Shown: positions 4,129 to 14,358 of the stretch, one piece after another
How positions within the stretch are numbered: position 1 is the first letter of the stretch
Layout of the letters: each line of letters starts with the position of its first letter
Translations under genes and position numbers: made by a program
Assembly (NCBI GenBank): GCA_016790635.1
Contig: JAEUOR010000026.1
Coordinates: 1 to 64,000, forward strand
Direction: 5' to 3'
Length of the DNA: 64,000 nucleotides
DNA from: Burkholderiales bacterium
GTDB lineage: Bacteria > Pseudomonadota > Gammaproteobacteria > Burkholderiales > JAEUOS01
Notes under the pieces: model-generated
Database searches by the model: none
The model's input: only the letters and a program-made list of their open reading frames with translations
What the model was told of the DNA's origin: nothing

Positions 4129-5193
4129 ATGGCATTGCACAGGTGGTCTTCGATTCTTGGTCACGCGGCGTGGGGGCTGGTGCTCGCGCTGCCGCTGCCC
4201 GCGGCGGCGACGGCGCCGGCGGCCGCGCTCGCCAGCGTGACGGTCAAGAGCGGGGGCAACGGCGAATCGTCAGGTTTCGACGGCGTGGTCGAAGCGCTGC
4301 GCCAGACCGTCATCGCAGCACAGGTGCAGGGCGCGGTGATCGCGCTGACGGTCAAGGCCGGTGACGCAGTGCGGGCCGGACAGGTTCTGGTCCGCCTCGA
4401 CGCGCGCGCGGCCCTGCAGAACGCCGCCGCCGGAGACGCACAGGTGCGCGCGGCGCGCGCCGAAATGGAGGCCGCCACGCGCGAAGTGGAGCGCCAGCGC
4501 GCCCTTTTCGCCCGGCAGTACATCAGCCAGGCCGCGCTCGACCGCGCCGAGGCGCAGTTCAAGTCGACCACGGCCATCGTCGAATCCCAGGTTGCGCAGG
4601 CGAATGCCGCGCGCACGCAGTCGGGCTTCTACGTGCTGAGCGCGCCCTATTCCGGCGTGATCGCGGAGGTGTCGGTCGTGCAGGGGGACATGGCCATGCC
4701 GGGCCGCCCGCTCATGACCATCTACGACCCGGCCGCGATGCGCGTGACCGCGCCGCTCCCGCAAAGCCTGGCCGCCCGCCTGGGCGGCGCCGATGCGATG
4801 CGCACCACGCGCATCGAGTTGCCCGGATTGCCGGCGGAGCGCTCGCAGCAGGCGCCGACCCGGGTGACCATCCTGCCCGCCGCCGACCCGGCAACCCACA
4901 CCGTCCCGGTGCGCTTCGACTTGGGCGCCTCTCTGCCGGTGGCGCCGGGCAGCTTCGCGCGGGTGTGGCTGCCTGCAGGCAACGGCAGCCAGGCGCGCGT
5001 CTTCGTCCCGTCGTCCAGCCTGGTGCAGCGCGCCGAGGTGACCGCGGTCTACGTCCTCGACGCCGGCGGCAAGCCGCACCTGCGTCAGGTGCGCCTGGGC
5101 CGCGCGAACGGCGGCATGACCGAGGTGCTTGCCGGTGTGTCCGATGGCGAGCGCGTCGCGACCGACCCGCAGGCCGCGGCGCGGGTGCGCTAG
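4129..5193 (+). CDS. RND efflux periplasmic adaptor subunit (HlyD/MFP family)
   Basis: About 354 aa. An N-terminal signal peptide of roughly 30-35 residues is followed by a beta-barrel/lipoyl/coiled-coil hairpin: the lipoyl half 'VIALTVKAGDAVRAGQVLVRLD', a long Ala/Arg/Glu-rich helical hairpin around residues 100-165, the second lipoyl half 'LSAPYSGVIAEVSVVQGD', then beta-barrel and membrane-proximal domains. The protein bridges an inner-membrane RND pump to an outer-membrane channel. It is the first gene after the ArsR operator, and the RND pump starts 9 bases downstream. No TolC-like outer-membrane gene is present in the locus, so the pump must borrow one. Confidence 0.9.
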   Translation: MALHRWSSILGHAAWGLVLALPLPAAATAPAAALASVTVKSGGNGESSGFDGVVEALRQTVIAAQVQGAVIALTVKAGDAVRAGQVLVRLDARAALQNAAAGDAQVRAARAEMEAATREVERQRALFARQYISQAALDRAEAQFKSTTAIVESQVAQANAARTQSGFYVLSAPYSGVIAEVSVVQGDMAMPGRPLMTIYDPAAMRVTAPLPQSLAARLGGADAMRTTRIELPGLPAERSQQAPTRVTILPAADPATHTVPVRFDLGASLPVAPGSFARVWLPAGNGSQARVFVPSSSLVQRAEVTAVYVLDAGGKPHLRQVRLGRANGGMTEVLAGVSDGERVATDPQAAARVR

Positions 5194-5202
5194 GCGAACG
5201 GC

Positions 5203-8200
5203 ATGCAGGCAAGCCTCGGCATCTCCGGTCGCATCGCCGCCTACTTCCAGGCGGCGAGCATCACGCCGCTCCTGGCGCTGGTGGCTTTCCTGCTGGGTGT
5301 CTTTGCCGTGATCGTCACGCCGCGCGAAGAAGAGCCGCAGATCAACGTCACCATGGCCAACGTCTTCATCCCCTTTCCGGGCGCCGCTGTCCGGGAGGTC
5401 GAGCAGATGGTGGCGGGCCCGGCCGAGCAGGTGCTCTCGCAGATCGCCGGGGTCGAGCACGTCATGTCGGTCTCGCGTCCCGGGCTGGCGCTGATCACCG
5501 TGCAATTCAAGGTCGGCGTGCCGCGCACCGAAGCGCTGGTGCGCCTGCACGACACGGTCAGGGCGAATGCGGACTGGCTGCCGCGCGGCCTGGGCGTCGG
5601 TGAACCGCTCATCAAGCCGCGCGGCATCGATGACGTGCCGATCGTCAGCCTGACCCTGTTTTCCCGCGACCCCGCGACCGGTTCGTTCGACCTCGAGCGC
5701 GTCGCCCACAGCATCGAGGCCGACCTGAAGCGTGTCGCCGGCACGCGCGAAGTCGTCTCCATCGGCGGACCCGGGCGGGCCGTGACCGTCGAACTGGACC
5801 CGACGCGCATGGCCGCCAGCGGTATTACCGTGGCCGACCTGCGTGCCGTGGTGGGCGGCGCCAACGTCGGTCTGCCGGCAGGAGACCTGGTCAGGGGCGA
5901 CCGCCGCATCGCCGTCGAATCCGGCCCCTTCATCCGGGATGCGCGCGACCTCGGCGAACTTGTCGTCGGCGTGCGTAACCGCAAGCCGGTATTCCTGTCC
6001 GAGGTGGCCCGGGTGCGCGACGGCGCACCGGCCGCCACGCGCACGGTCTGGCACGGCATCGCCGGCAAGGAGGGCGGCGAGTTTCCGGCAGTGACCGTGT
6101 CGGTCACCAAGAAGCCGGGCGAGAACGCGATCGACGTCGCCAACGCCGTCCTCAATCGCGTCGAGGCGCTGAGGAACACCGTGATCCCGCAAGGGGTCGA
6201 GGTCAGCATCAGCCGCAACTACGGCGCCACCGCCAACGACAAGGCCAGGCAGCTGATCCAGAAGCTTCTGTTCGCGACCGCCTCGGTGGTCGCGCTGGTG
6301 TTCCTGGCGCTGGGCCGGCGCGAGGCGGCCATCGTCGGGCTGGCCGTGGTGCTGACCCTCACGGCGACGCTGTTCGCCTCGTGGGCCTGGGGCTTCACGC
6401 TCAACCGCGTGTCCCTGTTCGCACTCATCTTTTCGATCGGCATCCTGGTCGACGACGCCATCGTGGTGGTCGAGAACATCCACCGCCACCAGCATCTGCA
6501 TCCCGGGCTGCCGTTGTCCGACATCATCCCGCGCGCGGTCGACGAGGTGGGCGGCCCCACCATCCTGGCCACGCTGACGGTGCTCGCCGCGCTGCTGCCG
6601 ATGGCATTCGTCTCCGGGCTCATGGGGCCCTACATGGGCCCGATCCCCATCAACGCCAGCATGGGCATGCTGCTCTCGCTGGCCATCGCGTTCGTGGTCA
6701 CGCCCTGGCTGGCGCGGCTGTGGATGAAACCGGTCGCCGCGGCGGAGCACGGCGCGTCCGGCACCAACGAGTACACGGGCCTGGCCGCCCGTCTGGCGCC
6801 CTGGTTCATGCGGCTCTTCCGCCCGCTGCTCGACGAACGCCGCGGTGGTCGCAATCGCGGCCTCTTCGCCCTCGCGGTGGGCGCGGCGATCGCGGTCTCG
6901 GTCGCCCTGCCGGCCGTGGGGTGGGTGCTGCTCAAGATGCTGCCGTTCGACAACAAGTCCGAGTTCCAGGTCATCGTCGACATGCCGGCCGGCACGCCGG
7001 TCGAGCGCACCGCCGCGGTCTTGCGCGAACTGGGTGCGCACCTGGCCACCGTGCCCGAGGTCACCACCTACCAGGCCTACGCCGGCACCGCCGCGCCGAT
7101 CAACTTCAACGGCCTGGTGCGCCAATACCACCTGCGCGACGGCGGCGAGTACGGCGACATCCAGGTCAACCTGGTCGACCGCAAGAGCCGCGATCAGCAG
7201 AGCCACGCGATCGCCACCCGGGTGCGCCCGGCGCTGGCGAAGATCGGGCGCTCCCATGGCGCCAACGTCAAGGTCGTCGAAGTGCCGCCCGGACCGCCGG
7301 TGGCGGCGCCCATCGTCGCCGAGATCTATGGTCCGGATGCCGCAGGTCGCGAGCAGCTGGCCCGCGCCGTGCGGGAAGTCTTTGCGAAGAGCGCCGGGTT
7401 CGAGGACATCGACGACAGCAACATCGCGCCGGCCCCCAGAGAGCTGGTCCTGGTGGACCGCCGCAAGGCCGCTCTCTTGGGCGTATCGCAACAAGCCATC
7501 GCCACCACGCTCAACGCCGGACTGGCTGGCCTGCCGGTCAGTTACCTGCACGACGGCACCAAGTATCCCGCGGCCATCACCCTGCGCCTGCCCGACGAGA
7601 GCCACGGCGACATGGACGCGCTTCTCGCGCTCGGCGTGCGCAGCGCCGAAGGACGCCTGGTGCCGATCCGCGAGCTCATCACGCGCGTCTCCGCGCTGCG
7701 CGAGCAGCCGATCCATCACAAGGACCTGCTGCCGATGAGCTACGTGGTCGCCGACATGGCCGGCCGGATCGACAGCCCGCTGTACGGCATGTTCGGCGTG
7801 CGCCGCGAGGTCGCCGCGCTCGCGGTGCCCGGCGGCGGCGCCATCGAGGAACACTTCATCAGCCAGCCCGCCGATCCCTACCGCGCCTACGCCATCAAGT
7901 GGGACGGCGAGTGGCAGATCACCTACGAGACTTTTCGCGACATGGGCCTGGCCTACGCGGTCGGCCTGATCCTCATCTACCTCCTGGTGGTGGCGCAGTT
8001 CGGGTCCTACCTGACGCCGCTGATCATCATGGCACCGATCCCGCTCACGATCATCGGCGTCATGCCGGGCCACGCCCTGCTGGGAGCGCAGTTCACGGCC
8101 ACCTCGATGATCGGCATGATCGCGCTTGCCGGAATCATCGTGCGCAATTCGATCCTGCTGGTGGATTTCATCAACCTGCAGCTTGCAGAGGGTGTTCCGC

Positions 8201-8448
8201 TGGCCGAGGCGATCCCGCGTTCGGCCATCACGCGTGCGCAGCCCATCGTCCTGACCGGGCTGTCGGCCATGCTGGGCGCGTTCTTCATCCTGGACGACCC
8301 GATCTTCAACGGCCTGGCCATCGCGCTGATCTTCGGCATCCTGGTCTCGACCCTCCTCACCCTGGTGGTGATCCCCCTGCTTTATTACGTCGCCTACCGC
8401 GGGCGCTCAAACCCGCCGGCGGCACAACCTGAAGGAGCACAAGCATGA
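5203..8448 (+). CDS. RND family efflux pump inner-membrane subunit
   Basis: 1081 aa, full length for the AcrB/MexB-type superfamily. The first membrane helix ('LLALVAFLLGVFAVIV') and the start of the porter domain ('PFPGAAVREVEQMVAGPAEQ') are at the N-terminus. The proton-relay pair Asp417-Asp418 lies in 'ILVDDAIVVVENIH', matching Asp407/408 of AcrB. A second porter half and a C-terminal six-helix bundle ('IGMIALAGIIVRNSILLVDF') follow. The sequence looks like the broad HAE/metal-type clade, but I cannot name the substrate; the CzcA-type charged metal relay was not checked in detail. It is co-transcribed with the adaptor and overlaps the next gene by ATGA. Confidence 0.93.
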   Translation: MQASLGISGRIAAYFQAASITPLLALVAFLLGVFAVIVTPREEEPQINVTMANVFIPFPGAAVREVEQMVAGPAEQVLSQIAGVEHVMSVSRPGLALITVQFKVGVPRTEALVRLHDTVRANADWLPRGLGVGEPLIKPRGIDDVPIVSLTLFSRDPATGSFDLERVAHSIEADLKRVAGTREVVSIGGPGRAVTVELDPTRMAASGITVADLRAVVGGANVGLPAGDLVRGDRRIAVESGPFIRDARDLGELVVGVRNRKPVFLSEVARVRDGAPAATRTVWHGIAGKEGGEFPAVTVSVTKKPGENAIDVANAVLNRVEALRNTVIPQGVEVSISRNYGATANDKARQLIQKLLFATASVVALVFLALGRREAAIVGLAVVLTLTATLFASWAWGFTLNRVSLFALIFSIGILVDDAIVVVENIHRHQHLHPGLPLSDIIPRAVDEVGGPTILATLTVLAALLPMAFVSGLMGPYMGPIPINASMGMLLSLAIAFVVTPWLARLWMKPVAAAEHGASGTNEYTGLAARLAPWFMRLFRPLLDERRGGRNRGLFALAVGAAIAVSVALPAVGWVLLKMLPFDNKSEFQVIVDMPAGTPVERTAAVLRELGAHLATVPEVTTYQAYAGTAAPINFNGLVRQYHLRDGGEYGDIQVNLVDRKSRDQQSHAIATRVRPALAKIGRSHGANVKVVEVPPGPPVAAPIVAEIYGPDAAGREQLARAVREVFAKSAGFEDIDDSNIAPAPRELVLVDRRKAALLGVSQQAIATTLNAGLAGLPVSYLHDGTKYPAAITLRLPDESHGDMDALLALGVRSAEGRLVPIRELITRVSALREQPIHHKDLLPMSYVVADMAGRIDSPLYGMFGVRREVAALAVPGGGAIEEHFISQPADPYRAYAIKWDGEWQITYETFRDMGLAYAVGLILIYLLVVAQFGSYLTPLIIMAPIPLTIIGVMPGHALLGAQFTATSMIGMIALAGIIVRNSILLVDFINLQLAEGVPLAEAIPRSAITRAQPIVLTGLSAMLGAFFILDDPIFNGLAIALIFGILVSTLLTLVVIPLLYYVAYRGRSNPPAAQPEGAQA

Positions 8449-8664: not shown

Positions 8665-9096
8665 ATGCACCTGCACTGCGCCGCCTGCGGCAGCACCAAT
8701 CGCGTTCCCGAGGAGCGGCTCGACCACGGTCCCGTGTGCGGGCGCTGCAAGGCCCCGCTCTTGGCGGGGGTGCCGGTCGCGCTCGACGACGCCTCGCTCG
8801 CACCGTTTCTCGAGAACACCGACCTGCCGGTGGTGGTCGACTTCTGGGCACAGTGGTGCGGCCCGTGCCGGGCCATGGCACCGCACTTCGCGGCGGCAGC
8901 GCGCGACATGCCACGCGTGCGCTTTGCCAAGGTCGATACCGAGGTCGCGCGCGCGGCCGCCGCCGACTACAACATCCGCAGCATCCCGACCCTGATCCTG
9001 TTCGAAAACGGACGCGAGTCGGCGCGGGTGTCGGGTGCGATGCGGGCGGCGGAACTGACGCGCTGGATCAGCAGCAAGAGCGCGCCTGCGGCATGA
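8665..9096 (+). CDS. trxC: Thioredoxin 2 (zinc-ribbon thioredoxin)
   Basis: 143 aa. The N-terminal zinc ribbon has cysteine pairs at 5/8 and 25/28; the thioredoxin fold follows with the active site 'WCGPC' (Cys65, Cys68), a conserved 'DTEVARAAAADYNIRSIPT' segment including the cis-proline, and the terminal helix. It is a cytoplasmic disulfide/persulfide reductase, and TrxC-type proteins are often stress-induced. It lies 10 bases behind the DUF2892 gene and ahead of the SQR gene, so it could reduce protein or low-molecular-weight persulfides made in this pathway (inference). Confidence 0.93.
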   Translation: MHLHCAACGSTNRVPEERLDHGPVCGRCKAPLLAGVPVALDDASLAPFLENTDLPVVVDFWAQWCGPCRAMAPHFAAAARDMPRVRFAKVDTEVARAAAADYNIRSIPTLILFENGRESARVSGAMRAAELTRWISSKSAPAA

Positions 9097-9136: not shown

Positions 9137-9170
9137 ACTTCAGGCAGCACGATGACACAAGGAGACGAAC

Positions 9171-10520
9171 ATGAAATCGGTTGCGAAACATGAAGTCCCG
9201 GCGCCGGGCGCGCCGGACCCGGCGCGCAGGCGCCTGCTGCGGCTCGGGGCCGGCGCCCCGGCGGCGCTCGCGGCGGCCGGCGCGGCCACGCCGGCACGCG
9301 GCGCGATCCGCACCAACGCCCGCATCGTCATCGCCGGCAGCGGCCTGGGCGGCCTTGCCGTGGCGCACCGCCTGTCGCAGGCACTGGAGGGCGCGAAGAT
9401 CACCATCGTCGACCGCAAGGAAGAGCACAACTACCAGCCCGGCTATACCCTGGTCGCCAGCGGGGTCTGGCCGATGGACAAGGTGCGCGACCGCAATGCC
9501 GACTACATGCCTCCCGGGGTCAACTGGGTGCGCGACATGGTCGCCGAGTTCGAACCTGCCGCCAATGCCGTGGTCACGACCGGCGGGCAGCGCATCGAGT
9601 ACGACTTCCTGGTCGTTGCCACCGGCCTGCACCTGGACTATGCGCAAATCCCCGGCATGGACGTGGCGGCGATCGGCAGCAACGGCCTGGCCAGCGTCTA
9701 CCCCGGACCGCAGGCTGCGCAGGCCACCTGGGCCGCGATGCAGGCTTTCGCGCAAAAGGGCGGCAACGCGATCATGACCTTGCCGGCCACGCCGCTCAAG
9801 TGTGCCGGCGCGCCGCTCAAGATGACCTTCATGCTGCGCGACCGGCTGCGCCAGGCGGGCACCCTGGACAAGTCAAAGGTGCGCTTCCAGTCCGCGCTGG
9901 GCAACGTGTTTGGCGTCAAGGCGGTCAACGACAACGTGCTGGCGCGCTGGAAGACACTGGGCGTGGACGTCGAAACCAACCGCCGCCTGGTCGGCATCGA
10001 CATCGGCGCGCGGCGCGCGACCTTCGCCAGCCCGGAAGGCGAGAAGGAGGAACTGCCGTACGACTTCCTGCACGTGGTGCCGCCCATGCGCGCGCCCGAT
10101 GCGATCCGCAAGAGCGAACTGTCCTGGAAGGAGGGCCCGTTCGCCGCCGGAGGCTGGCTCGAGGTCGACAAGGCCACGCTGCAGCACCGCCGCTTTGCCA
10201 ACGTGTTCGGCATCGGCGACATCAACGGCACGCCGCGCGGCAAGACCGCTGCAACCGTCAAGAAAAGCGCGCCGATCGTGGCGGCGAACCTCGTCTCCGT
10301 GGTCGCCGGACGCAAGCCCGAGGCGAGCTTCGACGGATACACCTCGTGTCCGCTGCTCACCCGCGAGGGTTCCGCCATGCTGATCGAGTTCGACTATGAC
10401 GGCAAGCTCACGCCGTCACTGCCGATGATCGAACCTCTGCAGGACAGTTTCTTCGCCTGGCTGCTCAAGGTGCGCATGCTCAAGCCCGCGTACCTGGCGG
10501 TACTCAAGGGTCGCGTCTGA
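9171..10520 (+). CDS. sqr: Sulfide:quinone oxidoreductase (SQR), with Tat-like leader
   Basis: 449 aa FAD flavoprotein that oxidises sulfide to a persulfide and reduces quinone. The FAD-binding motif is 'VIAGSGLGGLAVAHRL' (53-68). The two redox cysteines expected in type II SQR are Cys211 in 'TPLKCAGAPLK' and Cys393 in 'FDGYTSCPLL'; no other cysteine is present. The C-terminus has the amphipathic 'FFAWLLKVRMLKPAYL' membrane-binding segment. Residues 1-45 are an extra N-terminal extension with 'ARRRLLRLGAGAP' and an Ala-rich stretch ending near 'PARGA', resembling a twin-arginine signal. This would place it in the periplasm, unlike most SQRs of this type. The start follows an AAGGAG ribosome binding site. 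Confidence 0.88.
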   Translation: MKSVAKHEVPAPGAPDPARRRLLRLGAGAPAALAAAGAATPARGAIRTNARIVIAGSGLGGLAVAHRLSQALEGAKITIVDRKEEHNYQPGYTLVASGVWPMDKVRDRNADYMPPGVNWVRDMVAEFEPAANAVVTTGGQRIEYDFLVVATGLHLDYAQIPGMDVAAIGSNGLASVYPGPQAAQATWAAMQAFAQKGGNAIMTLPATPLKCAGAPLKMTFMLRDRLRQAGTLDKSKVRFQSALGNVFGVKAVNDNVLARWKTLGVDVETNRRLVGIDIGARRATFASPEGEKEELPYDFLHVVPPMRAPDAIRKSELSWKEGPFAAGGWLEVDKATLQHRRFANVFGIGDINGTPRGKTAATVKKSAPIVAANLVSVVAGRKPEASFDGYTSCPLLTREGSAMLIEFDYDGKLTPSLPMIEPLQDSFFAWLLKVRMLKPAYLAVLKGRV

Positions 10521-10551: not shown

Positions 10552-10893
10552 ATGTATGAAATCTGGCTGGCATGGAACATCGTCTGGGAAATGGCCCTGG
10601 CCGCGTGGCCGCTGGTCCTGGCTGCGGCGGTCGCGTGGGTGCTGCTCGTGACCGTCGCCTGGCGCCGCCCGGGCGCGCGTCCGGGCGCCGCGCTGCCGAC
10701 GGCGATCCTGTGGGCCGCGGTCGGCGCCATCGCGGCATTCGTGGTGGTGCCAGGCGCGGTGGGCTCCTCGCTCACCGAACTCGGCTACTGGGTCGACGTC
10801 GCCAATCTGGCCGCGATTGCGGTGGCCTGCGGCGCGGTCGTCGGCGCATTCGCGTGGCCGCTTGCCACACTGTTCAAGACGCGCATCGTCTGA
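10552..10893 (+). CDS. Small membrane protein of unknown function in the SQR locus
   Basis: 113 aa with three likely membrane helices: residues about 7-37, 48-68 and 82-106, joined by short Arg/Pro-rich loops. I do not recognise the family. An AAGGAG ribosome binding site precedes the ATG. It sits between the SQR and DUF302 genes with gaps of 31 and 36 bases, so it is very likely co-expressed with them and may help the SQR or DUF302 protein at the membrane. No cysteines or metal-binding motifs are visible. Confidence 0.8.
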   Translation: MYEIWLAWNIVWEMALAAWPLVLAAAVAWVLLVTVAWRRPGARPGAALPTAILWAAVGAIAAFVVVPGAVGSSLTELGYWVDVANLAAIAVACGAVVGAFAWPLATLFKTRIV

Positions 10894-10929
10894 CCCGGCA
10901 TGTCCACAATTTCCAAGGAGAACCCGCGC

Positions 10930-11316
10930 ATGACCTACCACTTCAGCAAGACCCTGCCCCTTTCCATGGACGCGGCCTGTGAACGCGCAACCGAGGCGCT
11001 CAAGGCCGAGGGCTTCGGCGTCCTGACCGAGATCGACGTGCAGAAAACCCTCAAGGCCAAGATCGGTGTCGACTTTCGCCCTTATCGCATCCTCGGCGCC
11101 TGCAATCCGGGATTCGCCCACCAGGCCCTCCTGGCCGAGGACAAGATCGGCACCATGCTGCCGTGCAACGTGATCGTGCAGGAACATGCCCCCGGCCGGG
11201 TGGAGGTCTCGGCAGTCGATCCGATCGAATCGATGAAGGCTATCGACAACCCCACCCTGGGCGGCATCGCCCAGCAGGTTCGGGACAAGCTCATGGGCGT
11301 GATCGCGGCGCTCTGA
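10930..11316 (+). CDS. DUF302 domain protein
   Basis: 128 aa from the ATG at 10930, chosen over an ATG at 10900 because AAGGAG lies 9 bases upstream of it. Nearly the whole protein is one DUF302 domain: 'AACERATEALKAEGFGVLTEIDVQ', the 'YRILGACNPGFAHQAL' core with Cys58, 'IGTMLPCNVIVQE' with a second cysteine, and a C-terminal helix. DUF302 proteins recur next to sulfur-oxidation and persulfide-handling genes in Gram-negative bacteria, but their biochemistry is not established. Cytoplasmic by sequence, as no signal peptide is seen. Confidence 0.88.
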   Translation: MTYHFSKTLPLSMDAACERATEALKAEGFGVLTEIDVQKTLKAKIGVDFRPYRILGACNPGFAHQALLAEDKIGTMLPCNVIVQEHAPGRVEVSAVDPIESMKAIDNPTLGGIAQQVRDKLMGVIAAL

Positions 11317-11410: not shown

Positions 11411-12223
11411 ATGAACCCAACCGAGCCCTGGTACCTCCCTGTCGCCGATGAGGTCGCGATTTTCGAAGCCGCCTGGCGTCAGCGCCTGCCGGTGCTGCTC
11501 AAGGGGCCGACCGGCTGCGGCAAGACGCGCTTTGTCGAGCACATGGCAGCGCGCCTCTTTCGCGCAGGCGAGGGCGCGCGCAAGCGTGTCGCGCCGCTGG
11601 TCACGGTCGCCTGCCACGAAGACCTGACCGCGACCGACCTGGTCGGACGCTATCTCTTAAAGGGTGACGAGACGGTCTGGATCGACGGACCGCTCACCCG
11701 GGCCGTGCGTGAAGGCGGCATCTGCTACTTGGACGAGATCGTCGAAGCGCGCAAGGACACGACCGTCGTCATCCATTCGCTGACCGACCATCGCCGCGTG
11801 CTGCCGATCGACAAGACCGGCGAGATGCTCGAGGCGCATCCCGACTTCCTGCTGGTGATCTCCTACAACCCCGGCTACCAGAGCGTGGTCAAGGACCTGA
11901 AGCCCTCGACGCGGCAGCGTTTCGTGAGCCTGGAATTCGGCTATCCCGCCCTCGCGGCCGAGGCTGAGATCGTCGCGCACGAAAGCGGCGTCGACCCGGC
12001 GCTGGCGCTGCAGCTCGCGAAGATCGGCGAGAAGGTGCGCCACCTGCGCGAGCACGGCTTCGACGAGGGCGTGAGCACGCGCCTCCTCATCTACGCTGGG
12101 CAACTCATCACCTCGGGCATCGACCCGCGACGCGCCTGCGACGCCGCGATCGCGCATGCGGTCACCGACGACGACGAGGTGCGCCAGGCGATCGTAGACA
12201 TCGTCGACGTGCTGCTGCCGTGA
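11411..12223 (+). CDS. cbbQ: MoxR-type AAA+ ATPase of the CbbQ/NirQ/NorQ family
   Basis: 270 aa. Walker A 'GPTGCGKT' at 32-39, Walker B 'GGICYLDEI' with Asp108/Glu109, and the CbbQ-type C-terminal domain. CbbQ-like ATPases work with a VWA-domain partner to remodel or activate a metalloenzyme (RuBisCO for CbbQO, NO reductase for NorQD). The partner overlaps it by ATGA immediately downstream. No RuBisCO, norCB or gas-vesicle genes are near. The gap to the DUF302 gene is 94 bases, so it may be part of the same transcript or have its own promoter. Confidence 0.88.
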
Positions 12224-14358
12224 TGGCGGAGGCGGGCAACGGCGCAACCCGCTCTGCGGAGGCTGCGGACGACGCACCTGCCGCTGCCAGCATCGCCTTC
12301 GCCGACATCCAGCGCGCGCTCGCCCTCTTTGCGCAGGGTATCGCCGGAATGCCGCTGCACCTGGAGCCGCGCGCCGCGGCGCGCACCGACGCCTCGCGCC
12401 GCCGCCTGGAACGCGAGGCGCAGACCCTGGTGCTGCCGCCGTCCGTCGGCATCCATGCGGGCGCCGCAGAGAATCGCGGCGCCTACCGGGCAGCGGTGCT
12501 GCACCAGGTCGGCTATCGGCAATTCGGCACCTACGCGTTCCGGCTGGCGCTGGCGGCGACGCGCATGCCGCTGCCCGCCGCCGCACCGCGCCCGGCGCGC
12601 CCGCTCATTGCGCGCCCTGGCATCATGCAGCGCACCGAACTGGAGCGCCTTTTCGCGCTCGCCTCGCGCCCCGCCCTGCTGCGGCGGCTGTTCGTCACCC
12701 TGGAGGACTGGCGCGTCGATGCCGCGCTGCGCCGCGCTTATCCGGGCGCGCGCGGCGACCTCGACCGCGCCTGCGCACACGCGCTCGCGGGCCGGCCGGC
12801 CCTCGATGCCCTGCGCCCGGTCGCGCGTCTGATCGAGGCCCTGGTGCAGGCCTCGCTCGGCGTGCCGCAGGCGAAGCTCGCGACGCTCGTCGTGGATGCC
12901 CGCCTGGAGGAACTCCTCGCGCTGGCAGCGCCGGTCGCAAGCGAGGGAGCGGACGTCTACACGAGCGCCGCGGCGGCGCTGGCCATCCATGCACTCCTGG
13001 TCGAGCGCGCACCACGCGTGCGGCGCGACACCGCGACGACACAAGGATTGGCGCTGCCGGACGAAGGCGCGAGCGCGGACGCCGCCGCGGGCGCTCACGA
13101 TGACCTTGCCGAAGGCATCGCCGAAGCCGCGCCCGAGGATTTCGACGGGCCGGGCGTGGACTTTCGCGGCGAGTTCGCGCCCGACCTTGAACTCCTCATG
13201 AGCGAGGAAGCGCGCGGCGGCACCACCCTGGCCGAGGTGCAAGCCACCCTGTCCGCACCGGACGGCGCCAGGGAAGCGGACGAACCCGGCACGACAGGAC
13301 GAAAACCGCGCGCCGCCAGCGGGCGCGGCAAGCGCGAGGTCGCCCGCAGCTTTCTCTACGACGAGTGGGACTGCCACAGCGGATCGTACCGGCGCGCCTG
13401 GTGCCGCGTGCGTGAAGAACGCCTGAAGGGGGAAGCGCCCGACTTCCTGGCCGACCTGCGGCGCCGCCATGGCGCGCTCGCGCGCGACCTGCGCCGCAGC
13501 TTCGGACTCCTGCGCCCGGAGTCCTGGCTGCGCGTGCATCGCGCCATCGACGGAGAGGAACCGGACCTCGACCGCGCCATCGAAGCGCACATCGACCGCA
13601 AGAGCGGCGGCGCCGGCGACGACCTGGTCTACATGCGCCGCGACCGCGGCCGGCGCGAAGTGGCGGCCGCGTTCCTGGTTGACCTGAGTGCGTCGACCGA
13701 TTTTCCGGTGCCCGACCCGGCGGGTGCCAACGTGTCGCCTCCCGCGAGTCCGGCTGCGCCAGCAACCTCCGACCCCTACGTCTGGGGCCGCTTCGGCGGG
13801 CCGCTCGACATCACGCCGGTCGGGCCGAAGCGCCGCGTCGTCGACGTCGAGCGCGATGCGCTTGCGCTGATGTGCGAGGCGCTCGACCGACTCGGCGATG
13901 CCTACGCGGTGTACGGCTTTTCGGGCAGCGGGCGCGACAACGTCGAGTTCCTGATCGCGCGCGATTTTTCGGATTCCGCGGCCGCGCGCACGCGCGCCGC
14001 CCTGGCGGCGATGAAGCCCATGCGTTCCACGCGCATGGGGCCGGCGATCCGCCATGCCGCCAGCAAGCTCAAGCGCCGCGCCGAGCGCGTCAAGACCCTG
14101 ATCGTCGTCTCCGACGGCTACCCGCAGGATGTCGACTACGGCCCCGACCCGAGCGACGAAGCCTACGGCATCGCCGATACCGCGCAGGCGCTGGCCGAGG
14201 CGGAGCGCGCCGGCATCGCCACCTTCTGCATCACCGTCGACCCGGCCGGCCACGACTACCTGAAGCGCATGTGCGAACCGGGGCGCTACATGGTCATCGG
14301 CGACGTCAACACCCTGCCGGCCGAACTGGCGCGCACTTACCGGGCATTGACCCTCTAG
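12220..14358 (+). CDS. cbbO: CbbO/NorD-type VWA-domain activation protein
   Basis: 712 aa. The N-terminal two thirds is the divergent CbbO/NorD scaffold, with an acidic/Ala-rich linker around residues 285-330 and '[20 protein letters not shown]'. The C-terminal von Willebrand A domain starts near residue 480 with an intact MIDAS motif Asp488-x-Ser-x-Ser ('[11 protein letters not shown]') and continues to '[15 protein letters not shown]'. The long variable stretch between MIDAS and the rest (Pro/Ala-rich, about 500-525) is an insertion. It should form a complex with the preceding AAA+ protein and deliver it to a client enzyme; the client is not evident. Start overlaps the ATPase stop (ATGA). 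Confidence 0.87.

Follow-up and report, generated by a model that had tools for sequence, protein, structure and literature searches.

The open reading frame at positions 9171–10520 of the window (the whole stretch of DNA analysed here, 64,000 nucleotides of contig JAEUOR010000026.1 from a Burkholderiales bacterium) encodes a protein identified, from its sequence and model fold, as a type II-like sulfide:quinone oxidoreductase (SQR) with predicted sulfide activity. We consider it likely that this enzyme is exported by the Tat system and works in the periplasm together with a membrane protein encoded directly downstream. A more detailed version, namely a two-subunit periplasmic SQR in which the Tat-exported flavoprotein would be anchored by an integral membrane subunit of the DUF5368 kind that also builds the quinone entry with its residues Asp82 and Glu13, is plausible and is offered tentatively, at slightly less than even confidence.

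Gene structure and identity of the SQR

The SQR gene and its main elements are as follows.

9159–9164, plus strand: Shine-Dalgarno sequence AAGGAG, a complete match, 6 nt upstream of the ATG at 9171
9171–10520, plus strand: SQR precursor with leader, 449 aa (open reading frame, alignment to human SQOR, AlphaFold model)
9171–9302, plus strand: leader, residues 1–44, with n-region, twin-Arg, Ala-rich core and A-R-G before Ala45 (putative cleavage site)
9225–9242, plus strand: twin-Arg motif R19-R20-R21-L22-L23-R24, with R19 and R20 invariant in 54/54 aligned relatives
9336–9353, plus strand: FAD-binding motif GSGLGG, residues 56–61 (sequence, alignment)
9801–9803, plus strand: redox Cys211, invariant in the alignment and aligned with a human SQOR Cys
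10347–10349, plus strand: redox Cys393, invariant in the alignment and aligned with a human SQOR Cys
10449–10505, plus strand: single C-terminal helix of the model, residues 427–445, in a tail shorter than that of leaderless type II SQRs

The ATG at 9171 is preceded by an in-frame TGA at 9153. A start downstream of the N-terminal extension was also considered and is excluded as far as sequence allows, since the next in-frame ATG, GTG or TTG is the GTG of codon 64, past the FAD motif. The preliminary description of this DNA had proposed a type II SQR with just two redox cysteines, preceded by an extension of about 45 residues with an Arg-Arg-Arg-Leu-Leu motif and an Ala-rich core ahead of the FAD motif. 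Both points agree with the sequence: Cys211 (TPLKCAGAP) and Cys393 (GYTSCPL) are the sole cysteines of the 449-aa protein and align with the human SQOR pair, and RRRLL begins at residue 19 of a leader of about 44–45 residues.

In a sequence search, human SQOR chains (PDB 6oi5, 6mo6, 8dhk) were the best solved relatives of the window SQR (E ~1e-72), sharing with it the fold, the FAD motif, the two redox cysteines and the GYTSC motif. The AlphaFold model (47 sequences; mean pLDDT 91) displays a two-dinucleotide-binding flavoprotein fold with the FAD motif, and it matches human SQOR along its length with TM-scores of 0.83–0.84 by query and 0.90–0.93 by target length. The C-terminus of the model consists of one helix with invariant W430, L437 and Y441, and the leader appears as a low-confidence helix (residues 17–36). 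The best NCBIfam model for the protein scores under its cut-off. Membership in the FccB/FCSD family was not indicated: FCSD_central reached 19.3/27 bits, FCSD-flav_bind was absent from the Pfam matches, and the protein matches SQOR far better than the FCSD/FccB models.

Two groups of type II SQRs

Relatives were drawn from a genome collection (80), plasmid records (7) and a sample of 398 genomes from within the phylum (56 regions), giving a 144-locus SQR set that includes the window and leaves out L002–L004 and L085, which are not SQR orthologues, and L001, which is identical to the window. When the enzyme bodies were scored without their leaders, two groups of 97 and 47 loci emerged, separated by a gap from 352 to 294 bits. 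The larger group, here called the exported clade for its predicted export, comprises members from Burkholderiales, alphaproteobacteria and gammaproteobacteria. When a tree was rooted on four distant SQRs, 94 full-length exported members were monophyletic with modest support (0.57), and 43 leaderless type II SQRs were monophyletic with a support of 0.97. The leaderless bacterial enzymes form a sister group with 34–44% identity. The set contains near-identical loci (e.g., L058/L066 and L081/L082), and the Fisher values given below ignore kinship.

The two groups differ in several features of the enzyme body. Both redox cysteines are invariant in all 54 aligned clade members (58 non-redundant SQRs minus L053, L047, L071, L077 and L081, plus the window). 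Bodies of exported SQRs contain 2.2 cysteines on average, with three or four in 20 of 94 members, versus 5.4 in the others, a figure that includes the four distant SQRs. The tail after the second redox cysteine spans 57–58 residues in 93/93 exported SQRs versus 60–92 residues in 43/43 leaderless ones, without overlap (L019, L066, L063, L077 and the four distant SQRs set aside); the window SQR is likewise shorter-tailed than the sampled bacterial type II enzymes. Furthermore, the motif around this cysteine is GYTSC in 93/93 exported SQRs, whereas leaderless enzymes have GYGSC, GYGAC, GYASC, GYSAC or GYSSC (GY[GAS][SA]C). Ten positions split the two groups, among them L216, F220 and T391 beside the redox cysteines.

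Many of the leaderless loci L106–L123 carry an in-frame N-terminal extra stretch of 120–200 residues, which we take to be DUF442-like.

The leader is predicted to be a Tat-type export signal

An Arg-Arg leader was found in all 92 readable N-termini of the exported clade, 21–36 residues ahead of the enzyme body. These 92 include L071, whose leader is irregular and was entered as positive; the other five of the 97 loci have an unaligned N-terminus (L031, L073, L074) or one cut by a contig end (L043, L053). At the leader's own Arg content, the chance of an Arg-Arg pair in a given 16-residue window is about 0.17 per sequence, so that its presence in every readable member exceeds chance. Moreover, in the alignment of 54 diverse members, which share 41–100% overall identity, R19 and R20 are the sole invariant positions from Met1 up to the body.

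The leader core of the window SQR is weakly hydrophobic (h-region value 1.48), close to those of two FccB-like twin-Arg proteins of the same genome (1.46 and 1.55), while in this small comparison two non-RR leaders of the window lie above it (1.92 and 2.02). A basic residue close to the cleavage site is present in 70/92 leaders and a strict A-x-A at the leader/body boundary in 82/92. Accordingly, the sequence features of a Tat substrate (N-terminal twin-Arg, weakly hydrophobic core, A-x-A type site) are all found, and TatC is encoded in the same genome. Profile searches were less telling: Tat HMMs matched 10/54 (Pfam) or 13/54 (NCBIfam) clade members at E up to 1, and the window SQR was absent from the ten Pfam matches among the 54 members searched. 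As these models match few members, the case for Tat was built on the invariant Arg pair instead.

In the leaderless group, Arg-Arg occurs ahead of the body in 10 of 47 sequences, nearly all inside the N-terminal extra domain, and no signal-like core was seen after the pairs in these ten. These comparisons favour reading the leader as a conserved signal of the Tat type, and hence predict a periplasmic enzyme. The Tat-like leader and periplasmic placement advanced in the preliminary description are thereby borne out by comparative genomics, at the level of prediction.

A DUF5368-like membrane protein is encoded directly behind the SQR

The downstream gene, which the preliminary description had overlooked, has the following elements.

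10552–10893, plus strand: DUF5368-like protein of 113 aa with three membrane helices; proposed partner subunit, beginning 31 bp past the SQR stop
10588–10590, plus strand: partner Glu13, conserved in 51/55, on the predicted periplasmic side
10795–10797, plus strand: partner Asp82, conserved in 55/55, on the predicted periplasmic side

A homologue of this gene lies directly behind the SQR at 92/97 loci of the exported clade versus 0/47 other SQR loci. Four of the five misses stop at a contig edge (L016, L019, L028, L066); at L077 the SQR frame is shifted and the homologue is present. Alphaproteobacterial plasmid records annotate the corresponding gene as DUF5368, and Pfam concurs. The window protein itself scores 12.5/25 bits against Pfam DUF5368 (PF17336), under the gathering cut-off that its same-position relatives pass, so its link to the family depends on intermediate sequences: 45/55 partner proteins match PF17336 at E up to 1 (best 2e-50), and an iterated profile unites all partners in one family. 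The window protein would thus be a diverged member of a family with no function on record in Pfam, and the name DUF5368 was not found in the open-access literature searched.

The association also holds when genomes are searched from the side of the partner. Exported SQRs occur in 10 of the 398 genomes of the phylum, and Pfam DUF5368 exceeds its cut-off in eight, always adjacent to an exported SQR; a ninth match, which at 22.2 bits is under the cut-off, is not behind one. The partner profile gave ten strong matches (at least 81.8 bits) in exactly the ten exported-SQR genomes and five weak ones (at most 24.2 bits) elsewhere. As these ten were rows of the profile itself, the independent test is that with the Pfam model alone.

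Hydropathy indicates three helices in 80/92 partners, and the model of the window protein consists of three long helices (pLDDT 94) containing few charged residues. In 55/55 partners, Lys and Arg are more numerous in loop 1 and the C-terminus than in the N-terminus and loop 2, where acidic residues are located. The positive-inside rule therefore predicts that the N-terminus and loop 2 face the periplasm; since Glu13 and Asp82 lie in these segments, the conserved side of the partner would be turned towards the compartment that the SQR would enter on export. Searches for a related fold gave little: Foldseek against solved folds returned four matches (best E 2.3), and a second comparison yielded the membrane part of ClbP (Z 5.6, rmsd 5.6, 104 aligned) and DgkA (Z about 5), possibly reflecting a common arrangement only.

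Pairwise identities of SQR and partner are correlated (r 0.91 over 89 loci). This mirrored divergence agrees with shared descent and, taken alone, is not enough to demonstrate contact; likewise, gene adjacency alone is no proof that the two proteins touch.

Genomic context

The remaining genes around the pair are listed below.

4129–5193: RND adaptor, ending about 4.0 kb upstream of the SQR
5203–8448: RND permease, between adaptor and SQR
8665–9096: TrxC-type thioredoxin, upstream flank of the SQR
10900–11316: DUF302 protein, downstream flank of the SQR/partner pair
11411–14358: pair of a CbbQ/NorQ-type AAA protein and a VWA protein, downstream

The preliminary description had placed the SQR next to the RND adaptor, and this part did not stand, with the permease and the thioredoxin lying between them. 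An RND permease occurs within 3 kb at 9/71 clade loci with enough flank versus 1/42 other SQR loci (Fisher p 0.09, kinship ignored), which does not support a link between the SQR and RND genes. TrxC and DUF302 were rejected as core parts, as they are near the SQR in just 10 and 8 of 90 loci. A DUF302 gene resembling one of the Synechocystis sqr1 operon is mentioned for Geitlerinema in an excerpt of PMC5061849. AAA/VWA-like pairs also lie near the exported SQR at L041, L060 and L063.

In a census of 122 neighbouring ORFs against Pfam, only methyltransferases (5/122) appeared in more than two, and no sulfur or efflux family recurred; the ORFs came from about 30 diverse clade loci (143 selected from 241 ORFs of 50 loci), were picked by length and include some that are not genes. 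SoxB was not enriched, exceeding its cut-off in 5/10 genomes with an exported SQR versus 12/41 with only leaderless SQRs (p 0.27; five of the 56 SQR-matching genomes, which have distant matches only, set aside).

The genome of the window carries SoxB, RuBisCO and two FccB-like flavoproteins, and from its gene content it looks like that of a sulfur oxidiser possibly capable of carbon fixation. Both FccB-like proteins (L002 and L003) have a twin-Arg leader with a Cys soon after the hydrophobic core, which could be a lipoprotein site. The SQR/partner pair is also found on plasmids. On the mobilizable Acinetobacter haemolyticus plasmid CP085288 (L086), cytochrome bd genes lie upstream and tatC about 2.5 kb downstream; on a Cereibacter sphaeroides plasmid (L090), the pair comes after a same-strand run of Calvin-cycle genes (gap, aldolase, ribulose-bisphosphate carboxylase).

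Comparison with known systems

Periplasmic SQRs and Tat-exported FccB are already known. FccB passes its electrons to cytochrome c, and the SQR of Rhodobacter capsulatus is a type I enzyme exported without a cleavable signal. A periplasmic location of the R. capsulatus enzyme is reported by Schutz et al. (1999). Like the predicted form of the window SQR, FccB is a Tat-exported periplasmic sulfide-oxidising flavoprotein, as described in an excerpt of PMC3504083. Elsewhere, the available text of PMC6548844 leaves the location of Methylophaga SQRs as cytoplasmic or periplasmic, and that of PMC12142623 describes a Desulfurivibrio Sqr that lacks a signal peptide and whose predicted secretion follows an unknown mechanism. 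From type II SQRs and human SQOR, the window SQR differs by its Tat-type leader and its constant membrane-protein neighbour. A clade of Tat-exported type II SQRs with such a neighbour was not identified in the open-access literature searched.

Proposed mechanism and alternative explanations

In the proposed mechanism, the SQR would fold with its FAD in the cytoplasm and then be exported by Tat, the leader probably being cut near residue 44. By homology to SQOR, periplasmic sulfide would attack the Cys211–Cys393 pair to form a persulfide, which may leave the enzyme as polysulfide or be transferred to a thiol or to sulfite, and the electrons would enter the quinone pool via FAD. The partner, with three helices, its N-terminus out and Glu13 and Asp82 in the periplasm, would most likely hold the SQR on the membrane and/or complete the quinone entry. 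It would thereby compensate for the shortened C-terminal tail of the SQR. According to parts of a type VI SQR study (PMC9666304), the C-terminal domain contains the site for quinone and is associated with membrane binding, most SQRs except type VI have two amphipathic C-terminal helices, and an SQR of C. maquilingensis becomes cytoplasmic and inactive once one or two of them are truncated. With a short tail in the exported clade and one C-terminal helix in the model of the window SQR, a membrane partner would likely offset the loss. The same excerpts report that the type VI SQR stays on the membrane after removal of its single helix, which counts against a simple anchor role of the tail.

Small membrane proteins beside enzymes can be transporters, and it is conceivable, if unlikely, that the exported SQR acts alone as a monotopic enzyme and that the three-helix protein handles its product or substrate, for example polysulfide or sulfide across the membrane. 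The retained C-terminal helix with its invariant W430, L437 and Y441 agrees with this, as does the description of SQRs as monotopic membrane flavoproteins in the available text of PMC9666304. However, the most conserved residues of the partner lie in predicted periplasmic segments and its helices are poor in charge, a pattern that speaks more for docking than for a path, and the enzyme tail is shortened in the same clade. It is rather improbable that the SQR is exported and its physiological reaction involves another sulfur substrate or another acceptor instead of sulfide and quinone. We know of no activity for the exported clade, the residues L216, F220 and T391 beside the redox cysteines differ from those of leaderless type II SQRs, and the best NCBIfam model stays under its cut-off; on the other side stand the strict invariance of the cysteine pair and the lengthwise fit of the model to human SQOR.

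It appears very improbable that the leader, instead of serving Tat export, acts as a Sec signal or remains uncleaved as an anchor in the membrane. The weak Tat HMM scores and a strict A-x-A near the boundary in most, not all, leaders would allow it, but an Arg pair invariant across such divergent sequences, the low hydrophobicity of the core and the frequent basic residues near the cleavage site argue for Tat, a route used by FAD enzymes such as FccB (excerpt of PMC3504083). Least probable is an RND-linked efflux module in which the exported SQR feeds the pump. Adaptor, permease, thioredoxin and SQR are codirectional both in the window and in its closest relative (L005), and nine clade loci have a permease nearby; yet 62/71 lack one, the contrast with other SQRs is weak, and the orientation varies. 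Our preferred explanation remains a Tat-exported type II-like SQR acting together with the DUF5368-like protein.

Significance

Genome papers often do not settle on which side of the membrane an SQR acts. The exported clade can be recognised by sequence criteria, namely an Arg-Arg leader, a tail of 57–58 residues after GYTSC and a small membrane gene downstream. If the partner is a true subunit, SQR would no longer be a one-protein enzyme, SQRs being otherwise described as monotopic enzymes that lack a subunit of this kind, and DUF5368 would gain its first function, as an uncharacterised family of sulfur bacteria and plasmids. Furthermore, the side to which the enzyme is exported decides where polysulfide would form, and bears on models of how sulfur reaches Sox, persulfide dioxygenases and sulfur globules.
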